A stretch of DNA of 64,000 nucleotides from Phlegmacium glaucopus (Eukaryota; Basidiomycota; Agaricomycetes; Agaricales; Cortinariaceae), in assembly GCA_015039465.1 (NCBI GenBank), contig MU130378.1, positions 2,691,219 through 2,755,218 on the forward strand, given 5' to 3'. Made by a program: the position numbers and the translations under genes. Shown piece after piece: positions 2,555 to 62,441 of the stretch. The notes beneath the pieces were generated by a model, which saw only the letters and a program-made list of their open reading frames with translations, made no database searches and was not told the origin of the DNA. Numbering within the stretch: the first letter of the stretch is position 1; each line of letters starts with the position of its first letter.

Positions 2555-3903
2555 TCAGAGAATGTTAACCTTTGGCCATGGGTATTGCGGTCCAACCTGT
2601 TGAGATCACGATTATAACCATGATTGATAATTACCAACCGTTTCAAGAAAGCTTACCTGCTGAACACAAGCGCGGGCCAAAGCATGTCCAGCCAAAACGC
2701 AGTCGTCAAGGTTCTTGCCAGCAACAAGAGCACCCAGGAATCCTCCTGCAAAAGCATCACCAGCTCCATTAGTATCTACGAGCTGGCTATCCGCCAATGG
2801 GTCGACCTGGAACGTTTTTGGGCTATCGGGTTTATCGGAAGTTACTAACACAGTCTGATGGGCTCCCTGGGTGAAGATCACGATACGAGGACGGGAAGGA
2901 TTGGACTTGGGAAGGAGAGCGATGGAACGAGCGATCGCGGGGAGATCTTTGGCGTCGGGTAAGCCAGTTGCGCTTGCCCAAGCTGCGGCTTCAGATTCGT
3001 TTCCGATGACAACATCGGTGTGAGGAAGAATTTCTTGCAATTGTTTGGTGAAGAACTGAGGGATGAAGGGGGCAGAGAAGTTCATGACAAAGGTCTAAGT
3101 GATGATTTAGGTTAGTCGGAGGATTCTTGTTTACTATGGACAATGAAATTACCTTTCCAGCAGCAGCAGATTTGCTACTAAGTTCAAGAGCAGATTCCAC
3201 ACCGTGGGTCAAGAAGTATCCCTCGATATAATAGAATTTCGCGTTTTTGACCAGGGGAGCAACTTCTGGGGACAATAGATGGGACTTGTCGAACTTCTCA
3301 GCAATGCGCAAAGTAGTTACAAGAGAGCTAAAAAGAAAAACAAATGATTCAATAAAGAGCATACATATATACGAAAAAAAAAACGACATACCGCGAGTGC
3401 CCTGTGATGATGACGGCGCAAGCGCCTGTCTTCTCACCTTTCTTAACTTGGTACACTTGATCTAGACCCTCGCGTTTGTTGGCTTGCTTGAGTTGCTCAG
3501 CGAGGTCGTCATCACCGACGGTCCCGGTGTACACAACTGAACCAGGAGGAAGAACATACTAAACAAAAAAGATGCTCAGGATGCAAGGCGTTTGAATCAA
3601 AGGTTCGATCCCGACTCACTGCAGCACCTCGGGCGGCGTTTTGGGCCGCCCCACCAGCAACGTAGGTTACTTTATGCTCTTTAACAAGTTCATCGTAGCT
3701 TCAATGATATATGAAATCAAATTTTGAATTCAAAGCAAGAAGAAGAAGAAGAAAAAGTCGTACATTCCAGCATGCTTCTCCTCGGCCAAGATCGCATCAT
3801 CTGCTTTCAAGCCGTATTTCTTGAGCAGTTCTTCTCCATCCCTAACTTGCATATCTAGCAAGGGGTTTCCCATACAAAAAAGCGAGTATGTCGATCCTGT
3901 CAT
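2555..3903 (-). CDS. ADO1: Adenosine kinase (PfkB family), intact copy
   Basis: Phosphorylates adenosine to AMP with ATP in purine salvage and removes adenosine formed by the methyl cycle; cytosolic in the known family. Six exons splice in frame. The N-terminus has the substrate-binding signature MGNPLLDMQV, followed by the glycine-rich YVAGGAAQNAARGAA segment, and the C-terminal part has the PfkB signature DTNGAGDAFAGGF, whose Asp is the catalytic base in this family. The last short exon encodes VGPQYPWPKVNIL and the stop at 2555-2557. Length of about 340 residues fits the family. A close paralogue lies in opposite orientation at 13951-15282 and is frameshifted, so this copy is probably the working enzyme. 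Confidence 0.9.
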
Positions 3904-4925
3904 GGTTGATTTTGGTGGATGTAGAGATTAGAAAGACGATAGTAAAAAATTTGAGAAAGAATCGATGATCAATTCTAATTAAAGCATTTATCAGATTATC
4001 TTACTCCGAGTAATACACGACGGAATCCGGACATGATTTGACCGTCAATCCGGACAAGATTTGCGGGCAGCCAAGGGTAAATCGCCCAAAATCGCCTTCA
4101 AATGTACAAATATTTCCTCTAATTCATTCCAAGATCTCTGAACCTCAAGCTCAAGCACTGGGTATTGAACTTTCACGGCAAGATCTCTCACATTCCACAA
4201 GGGTGAAACACAGTTCAGGGCTGCTATCAAATTCTTTCGAAAGAGTGCGCGAAGTGGGATGAAGTTTTTTGAGCCCTAGAAGGCCTGATCCGGACAAAAT
4301 TGGGCCGAAAAATAGCTAGGCCAACGATCCGGACTTTTTTTGGAACCTGGTGCAATCCGGACAAGAATCGCACTGAATCGCTATTGCCTAGGTCCTCTAA
4401 TGGTGCAGGGAAGGCGTAGAGTTGAAATAGTAGTAGTATATAAGGCCAGGAAGCCTTGGACTCTTATACTCGACGGGCCGCAGCCCAAAGTTTTTCACTA
4501 TAATTTTTCAGTGGTAGTGTATATGATGTCCACTGTGACTATTTCAATGCCCAGCATATTTCCAGCATCTATGGATTCAAATTAGACAGAGGCCAGCCTG
4601 GCCAGGAGTCGCGTTCAAAATTTTACATGCGTGTCCAGGCCGTCTCACTGAACTGAGGCTAACAGAGCTCACTTCGCTCGAAAACAATTATCGAAAATTG
4701 CACATAAATGATTATTGAGATAACAATGAGAGGGCGGTATTGCAACGTAGCAGTCGTAATAGATACTGAGATGCATGGGTAACTGCAGAAGTGAATGCAA
4801 GTCTTCCTTCGACCAAAGTCTAAATAGGTATAATTGAAAGGAGATGAGGGCAAAGAGAAGGGTATACCTTAGAGAAGCGTGAGCACATAGCTTTTGATGG
4901 GTGTAGATACAAATGTCAGCGAAGA
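3904..4925. other. Intergenic region carrying CCGGACA repeats
   Basis: About 1 kb between the 5' end of the adenosine kinase and the 3' end of the next minus-strand gene. The left part holds the dispersed CCGGACA repeat listed separately. The right part (about 4380-4925) shows only short interrupted frames and is likely 3' untranslated sequence and spacer. Confidence 0.5.
4018..4375. repeat. Dispersed repeat with multiple CCGGACA/CCGGACT motifs
   Basis: The hexamer CCGGAC occurs repeatedly at about 4026, 4051, 4291, 4330 and 4355, mostly as (A/G)ATCCGGACA(A/T). The segment 4300-4375 (GAAAAATAGCTAGG...GATCCGGAC...GCAATCCGGACAA) is related to 38465-38540, which sits at the broken end of a duplicated LysM gene. 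This is most simply a fragment of a transposable element or MITE family. No terminal inverted repeats or target duplication could be defined. Confidence 0.5.
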
Positions 4926-6115
4926 TTAACAATGATATTGGCGCGGCGACAGTGAGTGTGTACGATTTTCAGTTGGAGAATGAGGCAACACCGTCCTTAG
5001 AGAGGAAACTGCCATGTTAGTGATACGACTGCTTGTTTCAGGCACGCTGTAGGGTGCGGAGTAAGCATGATATGAACTTGTGATTTGACGATAAGGTATT
5101 CGTGGCGACGTGGGAGACGCAGGAGACTCTGGTTCATCCAGAGGCGATTCAGGTCGCTGTGATGCACGTGCTTGTACCTCCCCTAAATGTCGGTGGGGAG
5201 AGATGGAGAGGCTGGGCAAAGTAGGCCTTTCATGAGGCTCCCTATGGACTTTAAGATGCTGAAGCAGATTATCGTGCCTATTAAAATACTTTTCACACTG
5301 AGGATGGCTGCATTGGAATGCTAGAAATAAAAAGTGAGCGAACCAATTGTGGCATGTAACTTTACAGCAAGGCTCACGTTTTTCATGAGTGTGAATGGAT
5401 CGAATATGACGTTTGAGATGTTCGCCACGGTGAAAACACTTGCCACAACCCTCTACTTGACAAATGTATAATCTTGTCGCCTTTTGATCCGTGGTGGTTC
5501 GGCTAGACTCCTGAGTAGGTACACGTCGGCCCCGACTTTTCTTCGTTAAGTTGGGAATGGGCGTGGGAAGTGTGGCTCGCGAACGGGGAAAACGAGCCTC
5601 CAGTTCGTGCTGATCGTCGGACGCAGGCGAGGCATGCCAGAAGGTAATCTGGGATGCATTGGGAGGGTCCCTGGAACTCGTGCTGACGGACCCGAGTGAG
5701 GGATGACGAGTGATGGGTAGTTTAGGACTCGACGATGAGGAGCTTTGTGTTCGAGTATCAAACTGTTCGTCAGTACTAGTAACAGATTTCTTTGGCTTCT
5801 TCCGACTCGTTGTCGCTTGTTTTTGTTGTTCCGCGTAAAAATCCGCGTCATCGGGTGCCCGGCGCTTCAACACAATTCCAGTCTGCGAACGAGTGTGTGG
5901 GCGGCTGGGTATAGAATGAGTCAAGCCAAGAGAGGTATTCCTTTTATCATCTTCATTGGAATCGATGCTCTGTTTAAACAGTGATTTTTTTTGAAGGACC
6001 GAGACATCTTCGTGTGACCAAAACATACCTCTGCCTCTTCTGAAGCGGGGCCTTCATCAACTCTATCAGATTGAATATGGGGTCGCTCACTCTCCATAGC
6101 ATTTTGGGAGCCCAT
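4926..6115 (-). CDS. C2H2 zinc-finger transcription factor
   Basis: Probable sequence-specific nuclear regulator. The start ATG (6113-6115) opens with MGSQNAMESERPH; an intron follows after SEEAE, and a second intron splits the finger pair. After splicing, two adjacent canonical C2H2 fingers appear: YICQVEGCGKCFHRGEHLKRHIRSIH, the linker THEKPFQ, then CSHPQCEKYFNRHDNLLQHLKVH. The linker THEKPF is the classic inter-finger sequence and is formed only when the intron is removed, which supports the model. The two-finger arrangement recalls Msn2/Msn4-type fungal stress regulators, but orthology cannot be claimed. The flanks are Ser/Thr/Pro-rich with basic patches (KKPKK) that could be nuclear localisation signals. 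It is divergently arranged with the GH47 gene at 6491. Confidence 0.8.
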
Positions 6116-13950: not shown

Positions 13951-15282
13951 ATGACTGGATCTACATGCTCGGTTTTTTTCATGGGAAATCCCTTGCTCGA
14001 TATGCAAGTTATGAATGGAGAAAAGCTGCTCGATAAATATGGCTTGAAAGCGGATGATGCAATCCTGGCTGAGGAGAAGCATTTCGGACTGTACGAAGTG
14101 TTCTTTTTTCCCCCCCATTTGACTGCGAAGCTGATTTCATATCACTGAAGCTACGATGAACTTGTTAACGAGCATCAAGTAACCTACGTTGCTGGCGGGG
14201 CGGCACAAAACGCTGCCCGAGGTGCTGCAGTAAGTTGGGATCGAACTGCTCAAAATTAGATATCTTGCATCGAGCGCTATTTTTGTTTAGTATGTTCTTC
14301 CCCCTAAATCAGTGGTATGTACTGGGGCTGTAGGTGACGACGCCCTCGCCGAGAAACTCAAGGAAGCCAACAAACGCGAGGGTCTGGATCAGGTGTATCA
14401 AGTCGAGAAAGGTGGGAAGACAGGCGCTTGTGCCGTCATCATCACAGGACACTTGCGGTATGTGGCTTTTCGTATCGCCTTATATATGCGCTGTATTGAG
14501 GCCTTTGTTTTTCCAGCTCTCTTGTCGCTAACCTGCGTGTTGCTGATAAGTTCGACAAGGCACATCTATCATCCCCAGAAGTTGCTCCCGTGGTTGAAAG
14601 CGCAAAGTTCTATTATATGGACGGATACTTCTTGACCCACGGCGTGGAGTCTGCCCTTGAACTTGGTAGAAAATCTGCCACTGCCGGGAAGGTGATTTCG
14701 TTCGTCAATAAGAATTCATAGGCTCACCTAAATTATGATTCCAGACCTTCGTCATGAACTTATCTGCCCCCTTCGTCCCTCAGTTCTTCACCCAACAATT
14801 ACAAGATATGTTCTTCCTCACACCGATATCATCATCGGAAACGAATCCGAGGCCAAAGCTTGGGCAAGCGCAACTGGCTTACCCGGCGTCGAAGATCTCC
14901 CCGCGATCGCACGGTCCATCGCTCTCCTTCCCAAGTCCAATCCTTCCCGTCCTCGTATCGTGATCTTCACCCAAGGAGCTCATCAGACTGTGATGGTGGC
15001 CTCTGATAAGCCCGATAGCCCAAAGGCATTCCCCGTCAACCCATTGGAAGATAGTCAGATCGTAGATACTAATGGAGCTGGTGATGCTTTTGCAGGAGGG
15101 TTCGTAGGTGCTCTTGTTGCTGGCAAGAATTTAGACGACTCCGTTTTGGCTGGACATGCTTTGGCTCGTGCTTGTGTCCAGCAGGTGAGTGCTCAAACGA
15201 TTGATAATATCAATCAAGGTTATAATCGTGATGTCAACAGGTTGGACCGCAATACCCATGGCCAAAGGTTAACATCCTCTAG
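13951..15282 (+). pseudogene. Second adenosine kinase copy, frameshifted
   Basis: Paralogue of the gene at 2555-3903 in opposite orientation, with the same six-exon structure: MTGSTCSVFFMGNPLLDMQV at the start, YVAGGAAQNAARGAA, VVCTGAVGDDAL, FYYMDGYFLTHGVESALELG, the PfkB signature DTNGAGDAFAGGF and the same last exon VGPQYPWPKVNIL. Within the fifth exon, near 14808-14811, the DNA carries two extra bases compared with the intact copy (CAAGATATGTTCTTCCT against CAAGAAATTCTTCCT). The reading frame of FVMNLSAPFVPQFFTQQLQD therefore does not continue into VLPHTDIIIGNESEAKAW. No plausible intron repairs this. Everything else is preserved, so the loss is recent, or the two bases are an assembly error. 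Confidence 0.8.
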
Positions 15283-15744
15283 AGGAGAAAAATGGTGATA
15301 CCGTTCTTCTTAAACTGTAAACACAGAGTCCAGGCGGCCCCCTCCTGTAGCCACGACGCTGAAGGTACTGGGAAAGGCCATTCCGGGGAAAAAACTGGGG
15401 AAACATTATTTAGACATTAAGCGGGTGTTGATATTGTAATTGCCCTCAGATCCATTTACAATATGGCTTTTGTACAGAACCATGGCTCCGATATCGGTAT
15501 GGAAAGTAATGGCATAGAAATGGGGGTAAAAACTATGTATTTCATTAATGGTATTTTGTCTTGGCCGAATAAGAAAAACCTGGCTGCGCCAAGCTCTGGC
15601 TTAGTAGCTAAGGGTTCCTCACAACCCAGCTTGCCAGTGTGGATTTTTGAGAATGGTGGTCGCGCTGAATCACGTGATGTTCCAACAGCGAATTTTTTAC
15701 TGTGTGAGACCAGCCTTTTGTTCTTAGCATCATCCCGCAACACC
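15283..15744. other. Intergenic region between kinase copy and NOP10
   Basis: Contains a long open frame (15463-15837) that runs into the first NOP10 exon in another frame and has no family features. It is most likely the NOP10 promoter and leader. Confidence 0.4.
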
Positions 15745-17584: not shown

Positions 17585-20500
17585 CTATTTGAGACGAAGC
17601 TGGAAAAGTACAGGTCAGACAGATCAAATTCTCCAATGCAGAGTGGAACATACATACACGGTTCTCCAAAGCAATTTGTATGAGTTTCTGAGCAAAAGTG
17701 GACTTGCCGGAATTCTCAATGTCTTCAACTTCCCCAAATAAGAGCCCTTTCTCTTCTTCAAAAATCTTCTCTACAGCTGCAGTGACAGTTACATGGTTTC
17801 CGGATAACTTGTAAACATTGATTGCACAAGTCAAGTGTTCAATACTGGATGATGGTGCTTGGTCCCACAAATGAAATGAATACTCCAGAATGATAGCAAA
17901 TGCTATATGGAATGAAAATAGAATAAAATAGAAATCATGGATAATGACAGACCAATACCAAACCCAGCAATTTGTTGCTTTGCAGAAGGAGAACCAATCT
18001 AAGATTAAGTAATATTCAGAGACTGCAAAAATCAGCCATGATTAAGAACACTCACCAATAAGAATTGGGTGTCCAGTTGGTTCTGATCGCCTAACTAGAT
18101 AGACACAGGAATTTTGCCATAAAACTGTAGAAAAAGAATTGTATGGATGTAAGATTTTTCAGGAAATTGCACAGTACATACCAACAATCCACCTTTGAGA
18201 CTGATAGTCATTGCACTCACATCCTGGTGAATAATATATGAAGAAATGCAAAAAAAAATAACAATAAACACATAATAAACATGCCTGGTTTATCATATCC
18301 AATGAATGTAAACATTGAGAATGGTGAACAAGTAAAACTGAAATAATTACAATCTAAAAAGAAAAGTTGGAAATTTCAAATCATGATGACCCAAGAAAAG
18401 AATCAATGACTTACTTGCTGTTGAGGCACCAGAGAATGCAAACTCATGATGAGTGGACAGAATGTTCCAGGACAGGAATCAATGACTTACTTTCTGTTGA
18501 GGCACCAGAGAATGCAAACTCATGATGAGTGGACAGAATGTTCCAGGACAGGAATCAATGACTTACTCCCTGTTGAGGCACCAGAGAATGCAAACTCATG
18601 ATGAGTGGACAGAATGTTCCAGGACAGGAATCAATGACTTACTTGCTGTTGAGGCACCAGAGAATGCAAACTCATGATGAGTGGACAGAATGTTCCAGGA
18701 CAGGAATCAATGACTTACTTGCTGTTGAGGCACCAGAGAAAGCAAACTCATGATGAGTGGACAGAATGTTCCAGGACAGGAATCAATGACTTACAGACTG
18801 TTGAGGCACCAGAGAATGCAAACTCATGATGAGTGGACAGAATGTTCCAGGACAGGAATCAATGACTTACGGACTGTTGAGGCACCAGAGAATGCAAACT
18901 CATGATGAGTGGACAGAATGTTCCAGGACAGGAATCAATGACTTACTAACTGTTGAGGCACCAGAGAATGCAAACTCATGATGAGTGGACAGAATGTTCC
19001 AGGACAGGAATCAATCACTTACTACCTGTTGAGGCACCAGAGAATGCAAACTCATGATGAGTGGACAGAATGTTCCAGGACAGGAATCAATCACTTACAT
19101 GCTGTTGAGGCACCAGAGAATGCAAACTCATGATGAGTGGACAGAATGTTCCAGGACAGGAATCAATCACTTACAGACTGTTGAGGCACCAGAGAATGCA
19201 AACTCATGATGAGTGGACAGAATGTTCCAGGACAGGAATCAATCACTTACAAACTGTTGAGGCACCATACAAAGCAAACTCATGATGAGTGGACAGAATG
19301 TTCCAAGACAGGAATAAATGACTTACAGACTGTTGAGGCACCAGAGAATACAAACTCATGATGAGTGGACAGAATGTTCCAGGACAGGAATCAATGACTT
19401 ACTTGCTGTTGAGGCACCAGAGAATGCAAACTCATGATGAGTGGACAGAATGTTCCAGGACAGGAATCAATGACTTACTTGCTGTTGAGGCACCAGAGAA
19501 TGCAAACTCATGATGAGTGGACAGAATGTTCCAGGACAGGAATCAATGACTTACTTTCTGTTGAGGCACCAGAGAATGCAAACTCATGATGAGTGGACAG
19601 AATGTTCCAGGACAGGAATCAATGACTTACTTCCTGTTGAGGCACCAGAGAATGCAAACTCATGATGAGTGGACAGAATGTTCCAGGACAGGAATCAATG
19701 ACTTACAACCTGTTGAGGCACCAGAGAAAGCAAACTCATGATGAGTGGACAGAATGTTCCAGGACAGGAATCAATGACTTACATACTGTTGAGGCACCAG
19801 AGAAAGCAAACTCATGATGAGTGGACAGAATGTTCCAGGACAGGAATCAATGACTTACAGGCTGTTGAGGCACCAGAGAATGCAAACTCATGATGAGTGG
19901 ACAGAATGTTCCAGGACAGGAATCAATGACTTACACCCTGTTGAGGCACCAGAGAATGCAAACTCATGATGAGTGGACAGAATGTTCCAGGACAGGAATC
20001 AATGACTTACTTGCTGTTGAGGCACCAGAGAATGCAAACTCATGATGAGTGGACAGAATGTTCCAGGACAGGAATCAATGACTTACATGCTGTTGAGGCA
20101 CCAGAGAATGCAAACTCATGATGAGTGGACAGAATGTCCCAGGACAGGAATCAATCACTTACTCTCTGTTGAGGCACCAGAGAAAGCAAACTTGTGATCA
20201 GTGGGGGGTGTGTCCTGAGACACAAAATCATGGATGGGTGGGATATAAATTAGATGCTTACCAACTGCAAAGATTACAGTTAATGATGATATTTTATAAT
20301 GATTCTTAATAGCTACTCTGTGTTGTTGATGTTAGTATTCTGTTCATGACAATTAAGGAACAGTATTCACCACACAATGTGGGAACCACAGTGCCATGTC
20401 TGTCTGGAATACAGTAGGTATAAGAACAATTGGTTGCTCCTGATGTCCAGTCTTAAAAATTTTGGGGATCAATTCACTAGGAAACTATTTGTTGAGTGCA

Positions 20501-21834
20501 TGACATGTGGAATAAATTCAGTCAAATAACATCACCTCTCCACTGCATACTTGATGCATAGCTCCAGATTGTTTCGCTGTGTAGATACAAACAACTGCTT
20601 CAAATTAGTGTTGTTTAGTACTGCTGCTACAGTGTCCACCAGTCGACAACAATCCGCTCCCGGTTTGTTCATATCTAGAACTTGACTATTAATTTTTGTC
20701 ACCATAAATATAAGCAACAGAATGCTAGCATTACCTCGCAAATATACATGACCTTTTGGAGGAAAGTCCAGCTCCTGAAAGATAGGTAAATATTCCTTTT
20801 CAAAGTCGGCCACCGCACGATCAGCTGTCTGTTTGACTGCATCCTTGGCAGGGATACCCTCCTTTGTCAGCTTGCCGTATGCTATATCTTCTAAAGCATC
20901 AAATTTAGTGAATATTGCGACTACTGGAACTGCAAAAAATGTCCTTCAGATGATGATTTCCACAAACACACAAAAATCTAATGCTCACCACTCCCTGTAC
21001 CACACTCTGCAAAGAAACTCCGCTCTGCTGTTGTGAATGGTCTTTCGTCATCCATCGGGATGCAGTACCTATAGAGGCAAGAAATGGATTGGATGAAACT
21101 CCAAATTGACAATAACCCACCATATGACATGTAATTGTTCACTTAGTTCGAGCATCTTCGATCTCTCTGTTATGAACCGTTTCACTTCCTCAAGTTCATC
21201 GACAACTCCCGCCTCAAAACCACAGGAATCGTGGAAAACGAATCGATTGTTGCTCTTGAATATCAGCTCATTCTCAATGTTGTGCATTCCGCGCTGAGAT
21301 AATATAAGTTCATCCTCAATGCGAAGCACGACGCCATACATACATCCACAGAAGGCTTGAGTATCGATTTTTTAATCTGAAGATCCATATTTCATCAACA
21401 TCATTACCTCTAGATCCACTTTTTCAGTGTGATTGCGTACCTTCTTCCCTTCAGTATTGAATATCTCTGGTTGCTTTGTGGTGTTGCAGACCCTTTGAAG
21501 GATGGTCGTCTTGCCTGCATTTGATCGGCCTATGACGAGAACGCGAAAGCGAGGGGCCTTCTCTCGAATTTCCTCGGATCGATGATCATGGGGCAAGGCG
21601 GTTGATGTTGATTCAGATTGATGACCTACGAGACAACTGAATTATGAATATATTCTACTGGAAAACAATCCGACTTGTCGAAGTATGAAACTGTCCAAAC
21701 GCATCCTGAGTCTGGCTTGCAGCAGGTGGTTGTCGATTTGAACCTAATAGGATAGTTCTGAGAAAGTGAACAACTTGCTTTTGCAGCGGAATCTGACTTA
21801 TGAGCCGACCAAACTTTTCCTGCAATTTTTGCAT
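17585..21834 (-). CDS. G-domain (P-loop GTPase) protein with a block of 3-nt one-codon exons
   Basis: Putative GTP-binding protein of a type I associate with basidiomycete expansions. Spliced exons: 21675-21834, 21408-21625, 21344-21355, 21121-21293, 20989-21068, 20735-20929, 20536-20674, 20371-20476, then 25 exons of 3 nt (20262-20264 and one every 76 bases from 20163-20165 down to 18415-18417), then 18285-18353, 18182-18223, 18056-18094, 17953-17998, 17658-17902, 17585-17599. All phases agree; total about 537 residues. Seen: P-loop VLVIGRSNAGKTTILQR, FVFHDSCGFEAG (DxxG-like), VVAIFTKFDAL (TKxD), then LFVSTQRNNLELCIKYAVES and ELIPKIFKTGHQEQPIVLIP. C-terminal part: IVIISVLLVHHSQCLHSLDM, DVSAMTISLKGGLL, SPSAKQQIAGFGIAFAIILE and EKIFEEEKGLLFGEVED. 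Uncertain: the exact start (an upstream exon is possible), a GC-AG intron at 18224-18284, and an 87-nt intron at 18095-18181 that hides an in-frame TAG. Confidence 0.75.
18411..20186 (-). repeat. Array of 76-bp units = 73-nt intron + 3-nt hypervariable exon
   Basis: Twenty-four registers spaced by exactly 76 bases. On the minus strand each unit reads GTAAGTCATTGATTCCTG...GGTGCCTCAACAG (73 nt, perfect donor and acceptor) followed by three bases. The intron part varies at very few sites, mainly C/G at intron base 7 and A/T in GCATTCTC/GCTTTCTC; one unit (about 19261-19330) has a handful of changes. The three bases between CAG and GTAAGT take 15 different values: CAA six times, TCT three times, AAA and CAT twice, the rest once. 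In coding order the first twelve codons of the array (20163 down to 19327) read Arg His Gln Gly Pro Tyr Val Glu Lys Gln Gln Ser. The remaining twelve (19251 down to 18415) read Phe Ser His Val Leu Ser Ser Gln Gln Gly Lys Gln. None is a stop. A further 3-nt exon (Leu, TTG) lies upstream at 20262-20264. Confidence 0.93.
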
Positions 21835-22605: not shown

Positions 22606-25600
22606 ATGCCGCCTCGACGATCTTCACGCGCTGCTAGTGCTTCACTTGAGGCAGCTCCTATCGATTACAAACGAAAACGAGGCCAAACTACTGAACCTGA
22701 CAACGTCGAAAAAGAAAATGTCGCGAAGCCTCCTTCACGAACTCGCCGAAGTGTCTCTGCAAGGCCGAGTGTTGCCCCGCCATCCAAGGGGAGAAAGTCG
22801 ACGCGCTCGAAGACGTCACTACCTGATCTACCTGAGACGGAAAACGAAGAATATTCTGATGCTCCGCCCCCTGTCAAAAAAGCAAGGCCTTCAATAGACA
22901 TTGTGGAGAGGGAGGAGTTGAAATTAGAAGAAGAGGAAGAGTTAGAGGAAAAAGTGGAGGAAAAAGTGGAAGCAAAGCCGAAGAGGGGGAAGCGCGTGTC
23001 GAGTCGACCAGCACCCATGGACATCGACGAGGAGGCGCCTCCAATTACGCCTCCAGCAGACGAGGGGGAAGAAGAACACTCGCTGTTTGACCCACCGCTG
23101 GTACCTGGGCCATCAAGTCCTCAGCCTCAGGCGATACCCGAAGAGAACACCGGCCCGAAATCGCGACTAGTTATTCACAAGATGGCATTAGTAAATTTCA
23201 AGAGTTACGCCGGACGTCAGGAGATTGGCCCGTTTCACAAGGTAGTTCGCATTGCACAAACTCCTATAAGTAATCTTGACCTTTTCAATGCTTGCAGTCG
23301 TTCTCTTCTATCGTTGGTCCCAATGGCTCGGGGAAATCAAATACCATCGATGCGCTGCTTTTCGTATTCGGATATCGCGCCTCGAAGATGAGGCAGGGCA
23401 AGATATCCGAGCTCATCCACAATTCTGCAAACTTCCCAGACCTTGACGAATGCAGTGTTGAAGTACATTTCCGAGAGATCGTTGATTTGGTATGCATTTT
23501 TTCAGCTTTCGTTTCAATACATATGTTGACTTTTTTTTAGCCTGGTCCAGACGCGTTCAAAATTGTGCCCAATTCTCAGCTCGTCGTAACTCGACAAGCC
23601 TTCAAGAACAACGCAAGTAGATATGCCATCAACGATCGTTCGAGCAACTATACCGAAGTTCAAACCTTGCTTAAGGGACGAGGTATCGACCTCGATCATA
23701 ATAGGTTCCTCATTCTCCAGGTAGGGGTTCTCAACGTCTTGAAAAGTTGTGCAATGCGTCTCACACCGGCTCTACAGGGTGAAGTCGAGTCGATCGCCCA
23801 AATGAAGCCCAAGGCACAGACGGAACATGAGGACGGCTTGCTCGAATATCTCGAAGACATCATCGGTACTTCAAAGTACAAAGAACCTATCGACGAAGCT
23901 TTGGTCGAAATGGAACGTTTACAGGACGATCGCCAGGTCAAGATTAATAGACTTCGTCATGTTGAGAAGGAAAAGATCGCACTGGAGGCTCAAAAGAAGG
24001 AAGCTGAGGATTACTTGCGGCTGAAGAATGCCCATACCAAAGCGCTTTCGCGTCAATACCAATGGTCCTTGTGGCAGAGTTTGGAGAGGGAAGCGAAACT
24101 GAGCGCTCAGATCGTGAATTCTTTTTTTTATCAAATTTTAAGCCCGCCAGCTCACTAACTGTCTAATAGGAAAAACTCAAGCAAGATTTGGCTGAAGAGA
24201 CCGAGAAGAATAAGGATGACGTAGAGCATTTAGCTCTATTGAGGCAACATTACGAGGAGCGCGAAAAAACCTATGCGGTAAATTTTAGCTCATTTTGGGG
24301 GGGCTGCGGGCTGATGGGAGACTTAGGAAGTGCAAGCAGCCGCAGCTCTGGCTGTGAAAGACCTAACCGCTAATGAGAGGCAAGAAATCGGACTGCAAGA
24401 ACGGAGGAAACATACCGACGGTAAAGCCAAGAAGCTCAAGAAATCATTGAAAGACGTAAGTATCTTTCTTGGTTTTTTTCAGCGTCCAAAGCTAACCACT
24501 CCGATAGGATGGGGCGGCGAGGAAAACCGCGCTCATCACCATAGAGGATAGTAATGCTAAGATCAAAAGGGAGAAGAAGAAGCATGATGAATACGAGGTC
24601 TCGCTGGACGAAGAGGAGAAAGTCCTGGAGAGCATCCAAGATAGCCTGAAAGGTTTGATTATACTTTCGCGGTCAATTCTGTAAACTAATTTGACTGGGA
24701 ACTTGGCTTCAGATAAAACACAAGTTTTCCACGACCAAATTCATGCCAAGCAAAAAGAACTTCAACCGTGGACTGCGCAAATCAATACCAAGCAAGCTGA
24801 AATCGACGTTGCTACGAGCGAACGTGATGCTTTGGCCAAGAAGGCCCAGACGCTCCAAGTTGTTAGCAAAGAAGCGGGCGAAACCCTTAAAGCCCTGCAG
24901 CAGGACCTCCAAACCAGGGTAATTCCGAAAATTTCAGTAGACACGTTACATTGTTTACATTTTGCTCAAAGGTGTCAAAACAAGACGAGCTCAAGGATGA
25001 GAAGCGGAAAATTCAGAGTGATATTCAAGCTGCGCAAAAGAAGGTCAAAGTGAGGCTCTAGTTTTATTTTTTTGCAAAGCCGCTAAAGCACATGTTTAGG
25101 ATGCGGAAGACAGTGTTCAGCAATGGCGGGGAAAGGCTGCCACCAGTCGGAACAAAGTTGATGAAGCCAAAGCCAATCAATCAGAAAATCGATCAAGAAA
25201 TAACGTCTTGGAGTCGCTGACCCACCTGAAAGAGAGCGGAAAGATCAATGGTTTTCATGTGAGCGATTCTCCAATACTTGTCTTTGATCTTTTACGATGA
25301 GTTTTAGGGACGACTCGGCAGTCTTGGGACCATCCCTGAGAAATACGACATAGCCATCACGACTGCCTGCGGTGGCAATCTCAACAACATGGTTGTGGAC
25401 GACGTTTCGGATGCACAAGCATGTATCGAACATTTGCGTAAAAACAACGTCGGCCGAGCGTCCTTCATGGTTTTAAAGAAACTGAACCTCTACGGAATGG
25501 ACAAGATACCAACGCCAGAAAATGTCCCGCGTCTCTTCGATCTTGTGACTCCCAATCATGAACGCTATGCACCTGCTTTCTTCAAAGCAATTGGAAACAC

Positions 25601-27988
25601 ATTGGTCGCTAATGATATGGACCAAGCCAATCGCATCGCATTCGGGCGTAATAGATGGCGAGTAGTCACTTTGGCTGGTGGTGTGATCGAGACATCGGGC
25701 GCTATGTCAGGTGGAGGATCTCAAGTGTCCAGGGGTGGGATGAGTTCCAAACTAGCTGTTGCTACTGTATCTCCACAAGTACTCCGGGGATACGAGAAGG
25801 AAAGCGAGGATGCTACTAACCGGCTACAAAAGGCTACGGTTGACTTGCGAGAAGCCGAAATGGAGCTCGAACGATTATCCACTCGGGGTCCCGAGATTGA
25901 CATGGCTTACCAGAAACTTTTCCTAGATATCGAGAATGTGAAAAAGAGGATTGCTGAGGCGGAGAAACGGGTGAAAGATCTGGGGTACGTTCATTACTTA
26001 TCGTTGATTTCATTATCGGAGTTGTGATCTGGATCTTTTCAGTTCCCAAAACAAACCCAATACCGGAGACCTTGCTCGCATTTCCCGGCTAGAGCAGGAG
26101 ATCGCCAAAGCGAGCGATGCACTCGAGACGCTTAGAGAGCAGTCTAGCCGCATCGATCAGGATATCAAGAATCTTGAAAAGAAGATTTTGGACATTGGCG
26201 GTTCGAGATTGCTCACTCAGAAGTCAAAAGTAGACGGCATCAGGCTCCACATCAATTTGGCGAACGAAGAAATCACGAAAGCGGAGGTGGCAAGGAGTAA
26301 AGCGGAAAAGGATGCCGCCAAACTGGAAACGACCCTCAATTCCAACTCCAAGGCCCTGGACGCCATTGAGAAGGAACTCGAGGAATTAAATGAACAGATC
26401 GCGGGGCTTGTGGACTACGTCGCCAAACTGAAGGAGAACGTTGAGAACGCTCAGAGCGCGGCTGAAAATTCCAAAATGGATTTAGAGACGCTGAAAGTCG
26501 AGTTGGATGCGAAGGAAGAACAGATCGCAGCATTTAGACAAAAAGAGGTTCGTCACAGCTTTGTACCTCAGCGTTGCGATTAACAAGTTTTTCTAGATGA
26601 CGATCAAACAATCCCTAAGCGATAAAGAGAAAGAGAACAAAGAGAACGATCGTGCAATAACTTATTTCCAAGACTCACACGATAAATTGAGCTTGGAAGA
26701 TATCGAGTGAGTCTATTTCGCATTGACTTTATCCAGAGTTATACCTAAGCCCTCCCTTTGTTAGTGACGACGACGATGAAGACGAAGAAGCTGAAGAGGG
26801 CGAGAGCAAAGATCAGCCCCCGGAAGAATCAAAGGATGACGGAGTCCAGGTCAAATCCGAGGTCAAATCCGAACTTGGAACCAAGCCACAAGCTCGAAAG
26901 CAAGCCCGAGAACGAACTCCATCGACCGAACTCCACGTATACACTATTCCGGAGCTAATGAAGTTCAAGAAAGACGAACTCATGGCTGAAACCGTTTATC
27001 TCGAAGGTAAGTATCACGAAATTTAACGCCGCTTCGCTATACCTCATTCGTGATTTCTAGAACAAATCAAGAATGCTAGACCGGATATGACTGTTCTCAA
27101 GGAATACAAACAACGCGAGCAAGAGTTTTTCAATCGAGCTAAGGATTTAGAACTGATCACGGCTGAACGGGACGCACAGAAGGCGAAGTACGATGGACTG
27201 GGGAAACAACGTTTGGATGAATTCATGGCTGGATTTAATCTGATCTCGCTGAAACTCAAGGAAATGTATCAGGTGCGTATGTATCAGATTTGCAGGTATC
27301 GAACTATAATTTTGATAACTGTTGGTAGATGATCACTCTAGGCGGCAATGCCGAACTTGAGTTAGTCGACAGTCTGGACCCGTTCTCGGAAGGAATCATC
27401 TTCAGCGTTATGCCTCCCAAGAAGAGCTGGAAGAACATTTCAAATTTGTCTGGTGGAGAAAAGGTTAGCTTAACCCGCATCTATATGGGACCTGAATTGA
27501 CATTTTCTTTAGACGTTGAGTTCTTTGGCACTGGTTTTCGCCCTTCATGTCTTCAAGGTATGTCTCTTCTTTGGTTGAGAAAACGTATACTGAGTTTGTA
27601 TTCCTTAGCCAACGCCTCTGTACTTCATGGACGAGATCGACGCTGCGCTTGACTTCCGAAATGTTTCTATTGTAGCCAACTACATCAAAGACCGAACGAA
27701 GAACGCTCAATTCATCATCATCTCTCTGCGGTTCGTTCGCCTTTTTTTATTCCTGCACACACCTAATCATCTTTTATTTAGAAACGACATGTTTGAACTC
27801 AGCCATCGCCTCATTGGAATATACAAGACCTCCAATGCTACTCGAAGTATGTGTCCTTGTACAACCCATAGAGCTTTAGAACGGAAAGCTGACGTTATAT
27901 TTCAGGTATATCGATCGATAACCACGCCTTGCAGTCTGCTATCCCGCATCATCCACCACCTCAACCTCCGATTTCGCAGGCAGCTTGA
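22606..27988 (+). CDS. SMC4: SMC4, condensin ATPase subunit
   Basis: Core ATPase of condensin; pairs with SMC2 to compact mitotic chromosomes. A long acidic/basic disordered N-terminal extension (MPPRRSSRAA...) precedes the SMC head, as in fungal SMC4. Landmarks in order: MALVNFKSYAGRQEIGPFHK, Walker A VGPNGSGKSNTIDALLFVFG, the SMC4-like segment SNYTEVQTLLKGRGIDLDHN and EDIIGTSKY, a long coiled coil, the hinge around GFHGRLGSLGTIPEKYDIAI and the glycines SGAMSGGGSQ, the second coiled coil, the signature NLSGGEK (about 27450) and Walker B LYFMDEIDAALDFRN (about 27620). The C-terminus ends ...QPPISQAA at 27988. There are many short introns; the last joins TSNATR to SISIDNHALQ. The length of about 1,500 codons with introns removed fits the family. 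Confidence 0.93.
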
Positions 27989-62136: not shown

Positions 62137-62300
62137 ACAGTACTTTTCTGTCCCCCACCAGATCTGATCAGATCTGACCAGTTCTGATCTGATCTGATTA
62201 GAATCTGAGTGGATCCAAGTAGATCTGAGAAAATAGATACCTCAGTACTTTTCTGTCCCCACCAGATCTGATCAGATCTGATCAGAATCTGAGTGGATCA
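62137..62300. repeat. Duplicated segment rich in AGATCTGATC
   Basis: CAGTACTTTTCTGTCCCC followed by CCAGATCTGATCAGATCTGA occurs twice (about 62137-62215 and 62242-62300), each ending AGAATCTGAGTGGATC. A shorter block of the same words recurs at 62432-62450 (CTCAGATCTGATCAGATCTT). The words are self-complementary, so strong secondary structure is possible. Confidence 0.85.
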
Positions 62301-62306
62301 TACCTC

Positions 62307-62375
62307 TGTTAAGGTTTGGTTAAGGTTTGGTTAGGGTTTGGTTAAGGTTGGGTTAGGGTTGGGTTAGGGTTTTTA
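62307..62375 (+). repeat. Degenerate telomere-like GGTTAGGG repeats
   Basis: About eight units such as GGTTAAGGTTTGGTTAGGGT and TGGGTTAGGGTTGGGTTAGG. They resemble the TTAGGG telomere repeat of most fungi but are irregular and internal. Confidence 0.75.
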
Positions 62376-62441
62376 TTAAGGTTTCAGGGGTATATAGTTT
62401 CTATTCTGCTCAGAATGCCCCCAAAATGTGCTCAGATCTGA

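Follow-up and report, generated by a model that had tools for sequence, protein, structure and literature searches.

Tandem one-codon exons predicted in a family of GTPase genes of the mushroom Phlegmacium glaucopus

In Schistosoma mansoni, micro-exon genes (MEGs) consist mainly of very short exons (3–81 bp), have introns of up to 5 kbp and yield highly variable protein products, according to the passages of PubMed Central (PMC) article PMC10526429 drawn on here. The hnwd genes of Podospora anserina carry extremely polymorphic repeat arrays that evolve in concert through recombination within and between members of the family, as set out in the portions of PMC2873952 drawn on here. Among known systems the MEGs stand closest in form, and the hnwd repeats closest in evolution, to an array that lies in a 64,000-nucleotide stretch of contig MU130378.1 of Phlegmacium glaucopus (positions 2,691,219 to 2,755,218; hereafter the window). 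On the minus strand of the window, within a gene for a GTPase, a run of intron-like repeats is interrupted every 73 nt by three bases. It is very probable that splicing joins these 24 triplets, each a one-codon exon, in frame to form a variable linker in the protein; the splicing is predicted from the sequence, and the turnover of the codons as cassettes is a further step of interpretation. No description of one-codon exon arrays turned up in the PMC literature searched, most subscription journals being outside that coverage, and within this range the remark of the original prediction that it knew of no such described system stands.

The array has the strict geometry originally proposed for it. 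Twenty-four GTAAGT registers recur at an exact spacing of 76 nt, at 20162, 20086 and so on down to 18414. A full 76-bp unit begins with 73 nt of GT–AG intron-like sequence that closes with CAACAG, and three free bases complete it. Among the 23 full units only 8 of the 73 intron columns vary, six of them through one unit only, whereas the exon columns show 4, 4 and 3 states and are near saturation. With all 24 units counted, the divergent leader included, the per-site diversity of the exon exceeds that of the intron 16-fold, and the exon columns take the first three ranks among the 76. From the first triplet (20165–20163) to the last (18417–18415) the order is AGA CAT CAA GGT CCT TAT GTT GAA AAA CAA CAA TCT TTT TCT CAT GTA TTA TCC TCT CAA CAA GGA AAA CAA. 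A recount agrees with the earlier figures of 15 kinds of triplet, 12 kinds of residue and no stop; the preceding TTG makes a sixteenth kind of triplet. Of the 23 pairs of adjacent triplets, 2 consist of the same triplet twice.

The same architecture occurs at about 36 places in the genome, mostly beside GTPase exons, and employs two unrelated families of introns. The 73-nt intron (family 1) gave 224 matches, and the 150 listed all fall at nine array loci. In family 2 an unrelated intron of 53 nt separates the same 3-nt exons behind an FPQIV or FPHIV motif. Arrays of this second kind are present at the same place in four of the five distant paralogs read (41–46% identical) and in all ten further paralogs fetched. 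A two-unit family-2 query yielded 1,162 matches, of which the 150 listed fall, by our own count, into about 27 clusters; the arrays of L041 and L049 lie outside these. A Viterbi parser with geometric exon length and no preference for 3 was applied to 8 family-1 loci (9 segments, C249 being excluded because of its faulty assembly) and 14 family-2 loci, 22 arrays in all. At C203 (L036, oriented 3772–5633) and at C249 (L031, L045 and L046), about 23–25 units each are reversed but not complemented and sit beside T or A runs of 24–26; such units cannot be biological and point to faulty assembly. Read backwards, the two stretches supply 22 and 24 extra triplets, one of them TAA.

Coding through one-codon exons, as first proposed for this GTPase gene, is strongly supported by the deficit of stops, the upkeep of splice sites, the frame that leads into a conserved C-terminal domain, and the homogenisation of the introns but not of the triplets. 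Over the 22 arrays a single stop is found in 651 triplets, where 58 are expected; when first bases were shuffled within arrays, the minimum in 5,000 shuffles was 39. Family 1 has one stop in 229 triplets against 22 expected, and family 2 none in 422 against 36 expected; addition of the 46 triplets from the reversed stretches of C203 and C249 brings the count to 2 of 697 against 63. Triplets one base away from a stop are common (CAA, GAA, AAA, GGA, AGA, TAT, TTG, TGG and GAG), and in family 1 all 30 sense NNW codons are present and TAA is absent. A splicing bias against NAG, TNA or TGN was rejected as the cause of the deficit because NAG, TTA, TCA, TGT and TGG are all used, NAG 41 times and TGG 10 times in family 2. 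A third-base C occurs in just 2 of the 651 triplets and NCG never, and the loss of CpG where NNC is followed by G may explain the scarcity of C; a third-base G is found in 3 of 229 family-1 triplets versus 173 of 422 in family 2.

Two simpler accounts of the repeats were discarded. An ordinary minisatellite does not fit with variation that is concentrated on three bases per unit and that avoids stops. Translation straight through the array is precluded by an in-frame TGA at the fourth codon of the window intron, and neither 73 nor 53 is a multiple of 3.

Exactly 3 nt is the length of 229 of 230 exons of family 1, of 422 of 423 exons of family 2, and hence of 651 of 653 in total. Intron length is off its mode in 42 of 230 introns of family 1 and 115 of 424 of family 2, or 157 of 654 overall. 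These counts follow a check by eye of seven parsed exons of other lengths, four of which proved to be misplaced 3-nt exons. About 8 changes of exon length would be expected from the intron rates, versus 2 seen, which is evidence of moderate strength. Beside these regular arrays, L040 (C220, oriented at about 4370–4630) shows, past a short array, a 6-nt exon-like TGCTAT (read by eye) and exon-like triplets TAT, GAT and ATG between introns unlike the repeat, as if one-codon exons there had predated the array.

The splice sites have been kept where the rest of the intron has not. In C149, the oldest array, with units 19% apart on average, all 81 introns retain AG, and all but one, a cut-off leader, retain GT or GC (80 of 81). 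A CTCAT motif preserves its A, a possible branch point, in 99%. Among 418 family-2 introns that precede a 3-nt exon, GT or GC is present in 416 and AG in 417. Drift of the remaining columns around a fixed donor and acceptor is the pattern of spliceosomal introns.

The array can be placed in its gene by way of the following features, all on the minus strand and given in the direction of transcription.

20536..21834, minus strand: GTP-binding domain in several exons (Pfam MMR_HSR1); the annotated P0003, a "GTP-binding protein", ends just beyond.
20371..20476, minus strand: last ordinary exon upstream of the array; it closes in phase 0 with ...DMALWFPHCV and has a recognisable counterpart in those family-1 paralogs that were read upstream.
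20262..20264, minus strand: first one-codon exon, TTG; paralogs have TTG, TGG, TCG or GTG.
20166..20261, minus strand: 96-nt leader intron, by sequence comparison a diverged unit with a 3' end homologous to the repeats.
18415..20165, minus strand: array of 24 one-codon exons and 23 introns of 73 nt, from sequence reading and unit alignment.
18354..18414, minus strand: 61-nt closing intron, its 5' half homologous to the repeat unit by sequence comparison.
18351..18353, minus strand: probable one-codon exon ATT with donor GTAATT, the same in the family-1 paralogs read there.
18221..18223, minus strand: probable one-codon exon GAT (CAG, then GAT, then GTGAGT); AAT in C149.
18056..18094, minus strand: 39-nt exon LGDQNQLDTQFLL in phase 0; comparison by eye showed an equal length in the paralogs covered.
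17959..17998, minus strand: exon IGSPSAKQQIAGF, which aligns with the C-terminus of P0010.
17658..17902, minus strand: C-terminal exon AFAIILEYSFHLWDQ...QIALENR, a conserved helical domain by comparison with paralogs and P0010.

The predicted message is a single frame in which ...MALWFPHCV is followed by L and RHQGPYVEKQQSFSHVLSSQQGKQ, by the ATT and GAT codons, by LGDQNQLDTQFLL-IGSPSAKQQIAGF and finally by AFAIILEYSFHLWDQ...QIALENR. The frame is open from FPHCV across 25 triplets into the C-terminal exon, in agreement with the original assignment of phase 0 to both sides of the array. That assignment had taken the downstream exon to be ATT GTA ATT ATT. More likely it is ATT alone (18353–18351), followed by the GTAATT donor, because the stretch behind it contains frame-changing indels and differences in T-run length between paralogs. 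At C164b the exon preceding the array is read as N, and upstream of L035 (C164, about 637 kb) a run of N renders the gene unreadable.

The exons on either side encode a G-domain GTPase; the Pfam MMR_HSR1 score narrowly exceeds its cut-off (22.1 versus 21.9 bits). Of 916 homologues found, 120 were listed, and the named ones among these belong to what we take to be mushroom-forming fungi. P-loop, FHDS and TKFDA motifs are common to the homologues and form invariant columns in an alignment of 44 sequences. The best matches are proteins of P. glaucopus itself; P0003 is 91% identical to the hand-made query, which differs in one exon. The C-terminal region matches residues 364–453 of P0010 (30% identity, E 2e-9), a protein in which GTPase, linker and the same domain follow one another in one uninterrupted frame. 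AlphaFold assigns residues 324–365 of P0010, inside the linker, a predicted local distance difference test (pLDDT) score below 50. Structure comparison linked P0010 weakly with dynamin-like, IRG and G-alpha proteins, all distant GTPases; a search of solved structures gave one weak P-loop match, and the C-terminal region of P0010, used as a query, retrieved only P0010 itself.

The C-terminal exon looks to be under purifying selection. Among W, C164a, C201, C164b and C203, the ratio of nonsynonymous to synonymous substitution rates (dN/dS) is 0.14–0.47 in nine of ten pairs over 84 codons, and the closest pair gives 1.39 with few changes behind the figure. The comparison was ungapped, the final three of the 84 codons lie past the donor, and C34 and C149 were excluded from the pairs.

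Homologues in other fungi suggest that such arrays exist, and are spliced, outside P. glaucopus. Several sequences from short contigs (about 1.6–2.6 kb; seven were used) encode a long protein in one uninterrupted frame, and these intron-less jgi sequences are presumably transcripts. Behind WFPH or WFPQ they have linkers that resemble the array peptides, for example ARYYYDDVRDLDVLDLLRDLDVLLLLKREKLD in P0122. P0112 and P0163 are 81% identical before the linker and 76% after it, but 41% within it, and their linkers differ in length. P0010 and P0013 share 84% before the linker and 32% in it, with 30% after it on 20 residues, P0013 lacking the rest. The linker of P0122 has 52 residues compared with 22–24 in three Suillus genome models, with 36–58% identity in the part that aligns. 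Composition cosines place the linkers closer to the family-2 array peptides (0.89) than to G domains (0.77) or family 1 (0.71), for seven linker cores chosen by eye.

From these observations a mechanism can be sketched. The linker encoded by the array would connect the GTP-binding and C-terminal domains. The short introns would be removed one after another by intron definition, each 3-nt exon being passed to the next donor in the manner of recursive splicing. At the level of evolution the introns may act as homology spacers and each codon as a cassette, such that single codons would be added, dropped or swapped, with the frame unchanged, by gene conversion and unequal exchange inside a locus or across loci. 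Exchange would homogenise the introns, and selection for new linker sequences would keep the codons apart. A guess at the use of the linker, made by analogy with fungal non-self recognition genes, is a fast-changing segment for recognition or binding.

Several observations weigh against coding by one-codon exons, or against its generality. The window array by itself has no stop in 24 triplets where 3.2 are expected, which is not significant; the significance of the test comes from the pooled arrays. C223 (L032) contains a TGA, the sole stop of the regular parse, and a TAA occurs in the reversed part of C203. The TGA exon may be skipped, or the protein truncated. The introns of that array are almost uniform. 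True 2-nt exons number two (C164a and C220), a junction in L048 has lost both acceptor and exon, and the test of exon length is weak by itself. Donor exceptions comprise cut-off leaders and one GG in C203 in family 1, and a parser slip in L048 and one GG in L056 in family 2; one acceptor in L043 reads GG. Five pairs that involve C223 have dN/dS values of 0.79–1.06 in the C-terminal exon, compared without gaps, which we think are spoilt by an in-frame indel, and C149 has a frameshift in the same exon. Of the six P. glaucopus models read (P0001–P0006), none continues through the array: P0001 extends into the leader intron and the others stop short of the array. Finally, the distant paralog L044 has no array in the stretch read.

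How the triplets come to differ is a separate question. The original prediction attributed their variability to strong diversifying pressure. Selection is only one reading of its cause, because homogenisation of the introns between loci makes the triplets look faster by contrast. The intron consensus is identical at five loci, with C149 differing at 2 of 73 sites. Upstream flanks are 3.5–6.6% apart among the four of these five loci with upstream sequence, and downstream flanks are 1.8–10% apart over about 615 nt at all five. A shared order of triplets between arrays was sought and rejected: of 28 pairs one reached p 0.033 on a five-triplet match, and in a comparison of 171 pairs the three best rest on two to five triplets. 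Intron similarity is a poor predictor of triplet identity. It appears that triplets change or are exchanged far faster than the flanks diverge, yet are inherited for some time.

The main rival to this scheme accepts one-codon splicing and is in this respect a variant of the explanation favoured here. It holds that the triplets vary by mutation directed to the junction, for instance by non-templated bases introduced when units are copied; we regard it as possible though rather less than probable. Consistent with such mutation, arrays with almost identical introns already show random triplets, and the triplets of C201 and C164b align no better than shuffles (p 0.375) although their flanks are only 1.8% apart over 618 nt. 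Block duplication of triplets within arrays was not found beyond chance in 19 arrays, with the weak exception of L051 (p about 0.03). On the other hand, some arrays, C164a among them, have triplets more alike than others do, and in family 2 triplet identity is 28% at an intron distance of 0–2% versus about 10% further away, as inheritance followed by change predicts for recent duplicates. We know of no process that adds three bases, no more and no fewer, at every event. The turnover that we prefer is recombination among units and among loci, for which the introns give homology, combined with selection for codon diversity.

A second possibility, likewise compatible with the favoured explanation, is that any donor may be joined to any later acceptor, each transcript taking its own in-frame subset of codons. 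Since donors and acceptors in the window are alike and all exons have 3 nt, every skip would preserve the frame, and such splicing could bypass the TGA of C223. No observation in this analysis favours variable inclusion, and the loss of stops from almost every unit points to routine inclusion of each one; combinatorial splicing seems unlikely.

It is quite improbable that the array arose when an introner-like element invaded an older linker exon, until then uninterrupted, at each of its codon boundaries. The presence of one recent intron family per locus and the resemblance of the codons to ordinary old coding sequence would be in keeping with that origin. Every insertion, however, must then have landed exactly 3 nt from the last and always in phase 0, the listed matches of the 73-nt intron are confined to array loci, and a 3-bp target duplication calls for identical neighbours where the window has so few. 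Removal of the whole array as one or a few long introns, with the triplets as minisatellite noise, would suit the public gene models read, which ignore the array, and would keep the frame because both flanking exons are in phase 0, but it is very improbable in that it gives no reason for the near absence of stops, for the internal splice sites kept in old arrays or for variation focused on three bases.

The preferred reading, one-codon splicing with recombinational turnover, would have consequences beyond this locus. Should transcripts confirm it, introns would part single codons dozens of times in succession, and spliceosomes would prove able to process runs of 3-nt exons. Introns would gain an evolutionary use as homology spacers for recombination at the level of the codon, and mushroom-forming fungi would possess a fast-diversifying protein segment that the gene models read have missed. 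The broader notion of a codon-cassette system, with single codons as units of recombination in dozens of GTPase genes, perhaps with variable splicing, and widespread in fungi, is in our judgement evenly balanced. Under it a protein segment could be lengthened, shuffled and rewritten one amino acid at a time without frameshifts, and well over a thousand one-codon exons of one genome would take part. The array, once confirmed, raises the testable question of how an intron array keeps its frame and content while neutral sequence is homogenised.

The surroundings in the window include a gene that appears to be duplicated around the region. Two closely similar open reading frames, at 2612–3085 (minus strand) and 14735–15298 (plus strand), contain DTNGAGDAFAGGF, which we take to resemble a sugar or adenosine kinase motif, and suggest a duplicated kinase gene. 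Open reading frames at 22606–26027 (plus strand) point away from the GTPase gene and presumably belong to a gene for an SMC protein. Short tandem repeats, CAGATCTGAT and GTTAAGGTTTG, lie at 62159–62384.

The array is like several described systems in one respect each and unlike all of them in others. Minisatellites occur as tandem units within introns or genes, and the arrays share with them their tandem units, here of 56 or 76 bp, and a copy number that differs between loci; the concentration of variation on three stop-avoiding bases per unit sets them apart. Like recursive splicing, in the account given in the cited part of PMC6224609, the predicted pathway brings a joined exon end directly up to the next donor, but three bases would be retained at each step, dozens of times running. 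Introners, as the cited parts of PMC9860276 and PMC4457414 portray them, likewise supply a genome with numerous almost identical introns of a single family. Introner-like elements scatter over many unrelated genes; the introns here stand side by side in a single gene family, the 150 matches listed of 224 include no dispersed copy, and, unlike introner families with target-site duplication, neighbouring triplets agree in just 2 of 23 window pairs. With the hnwd repeats, so far as the cited portions of PMC2873952 go, the arrays share homogenised units with positions kept variable, although the hnwd unit is a coding WD repeat in a STAND protein and the unit here is an intron plus one codon in a G-domain GTPase. 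With the MEGs they share very short exons and a highly variable product, to the extent that PMC10526429 is cited above. The introns here, in contrast, are mostly 53 or 73 nt and homogenised, the one-codon exons lie in tandem register, and micro-exons are limited to the linker, with ordinary exons encoding the GTPase and C-terminal domains. MEG proteins and this GTPase seem unrelated.
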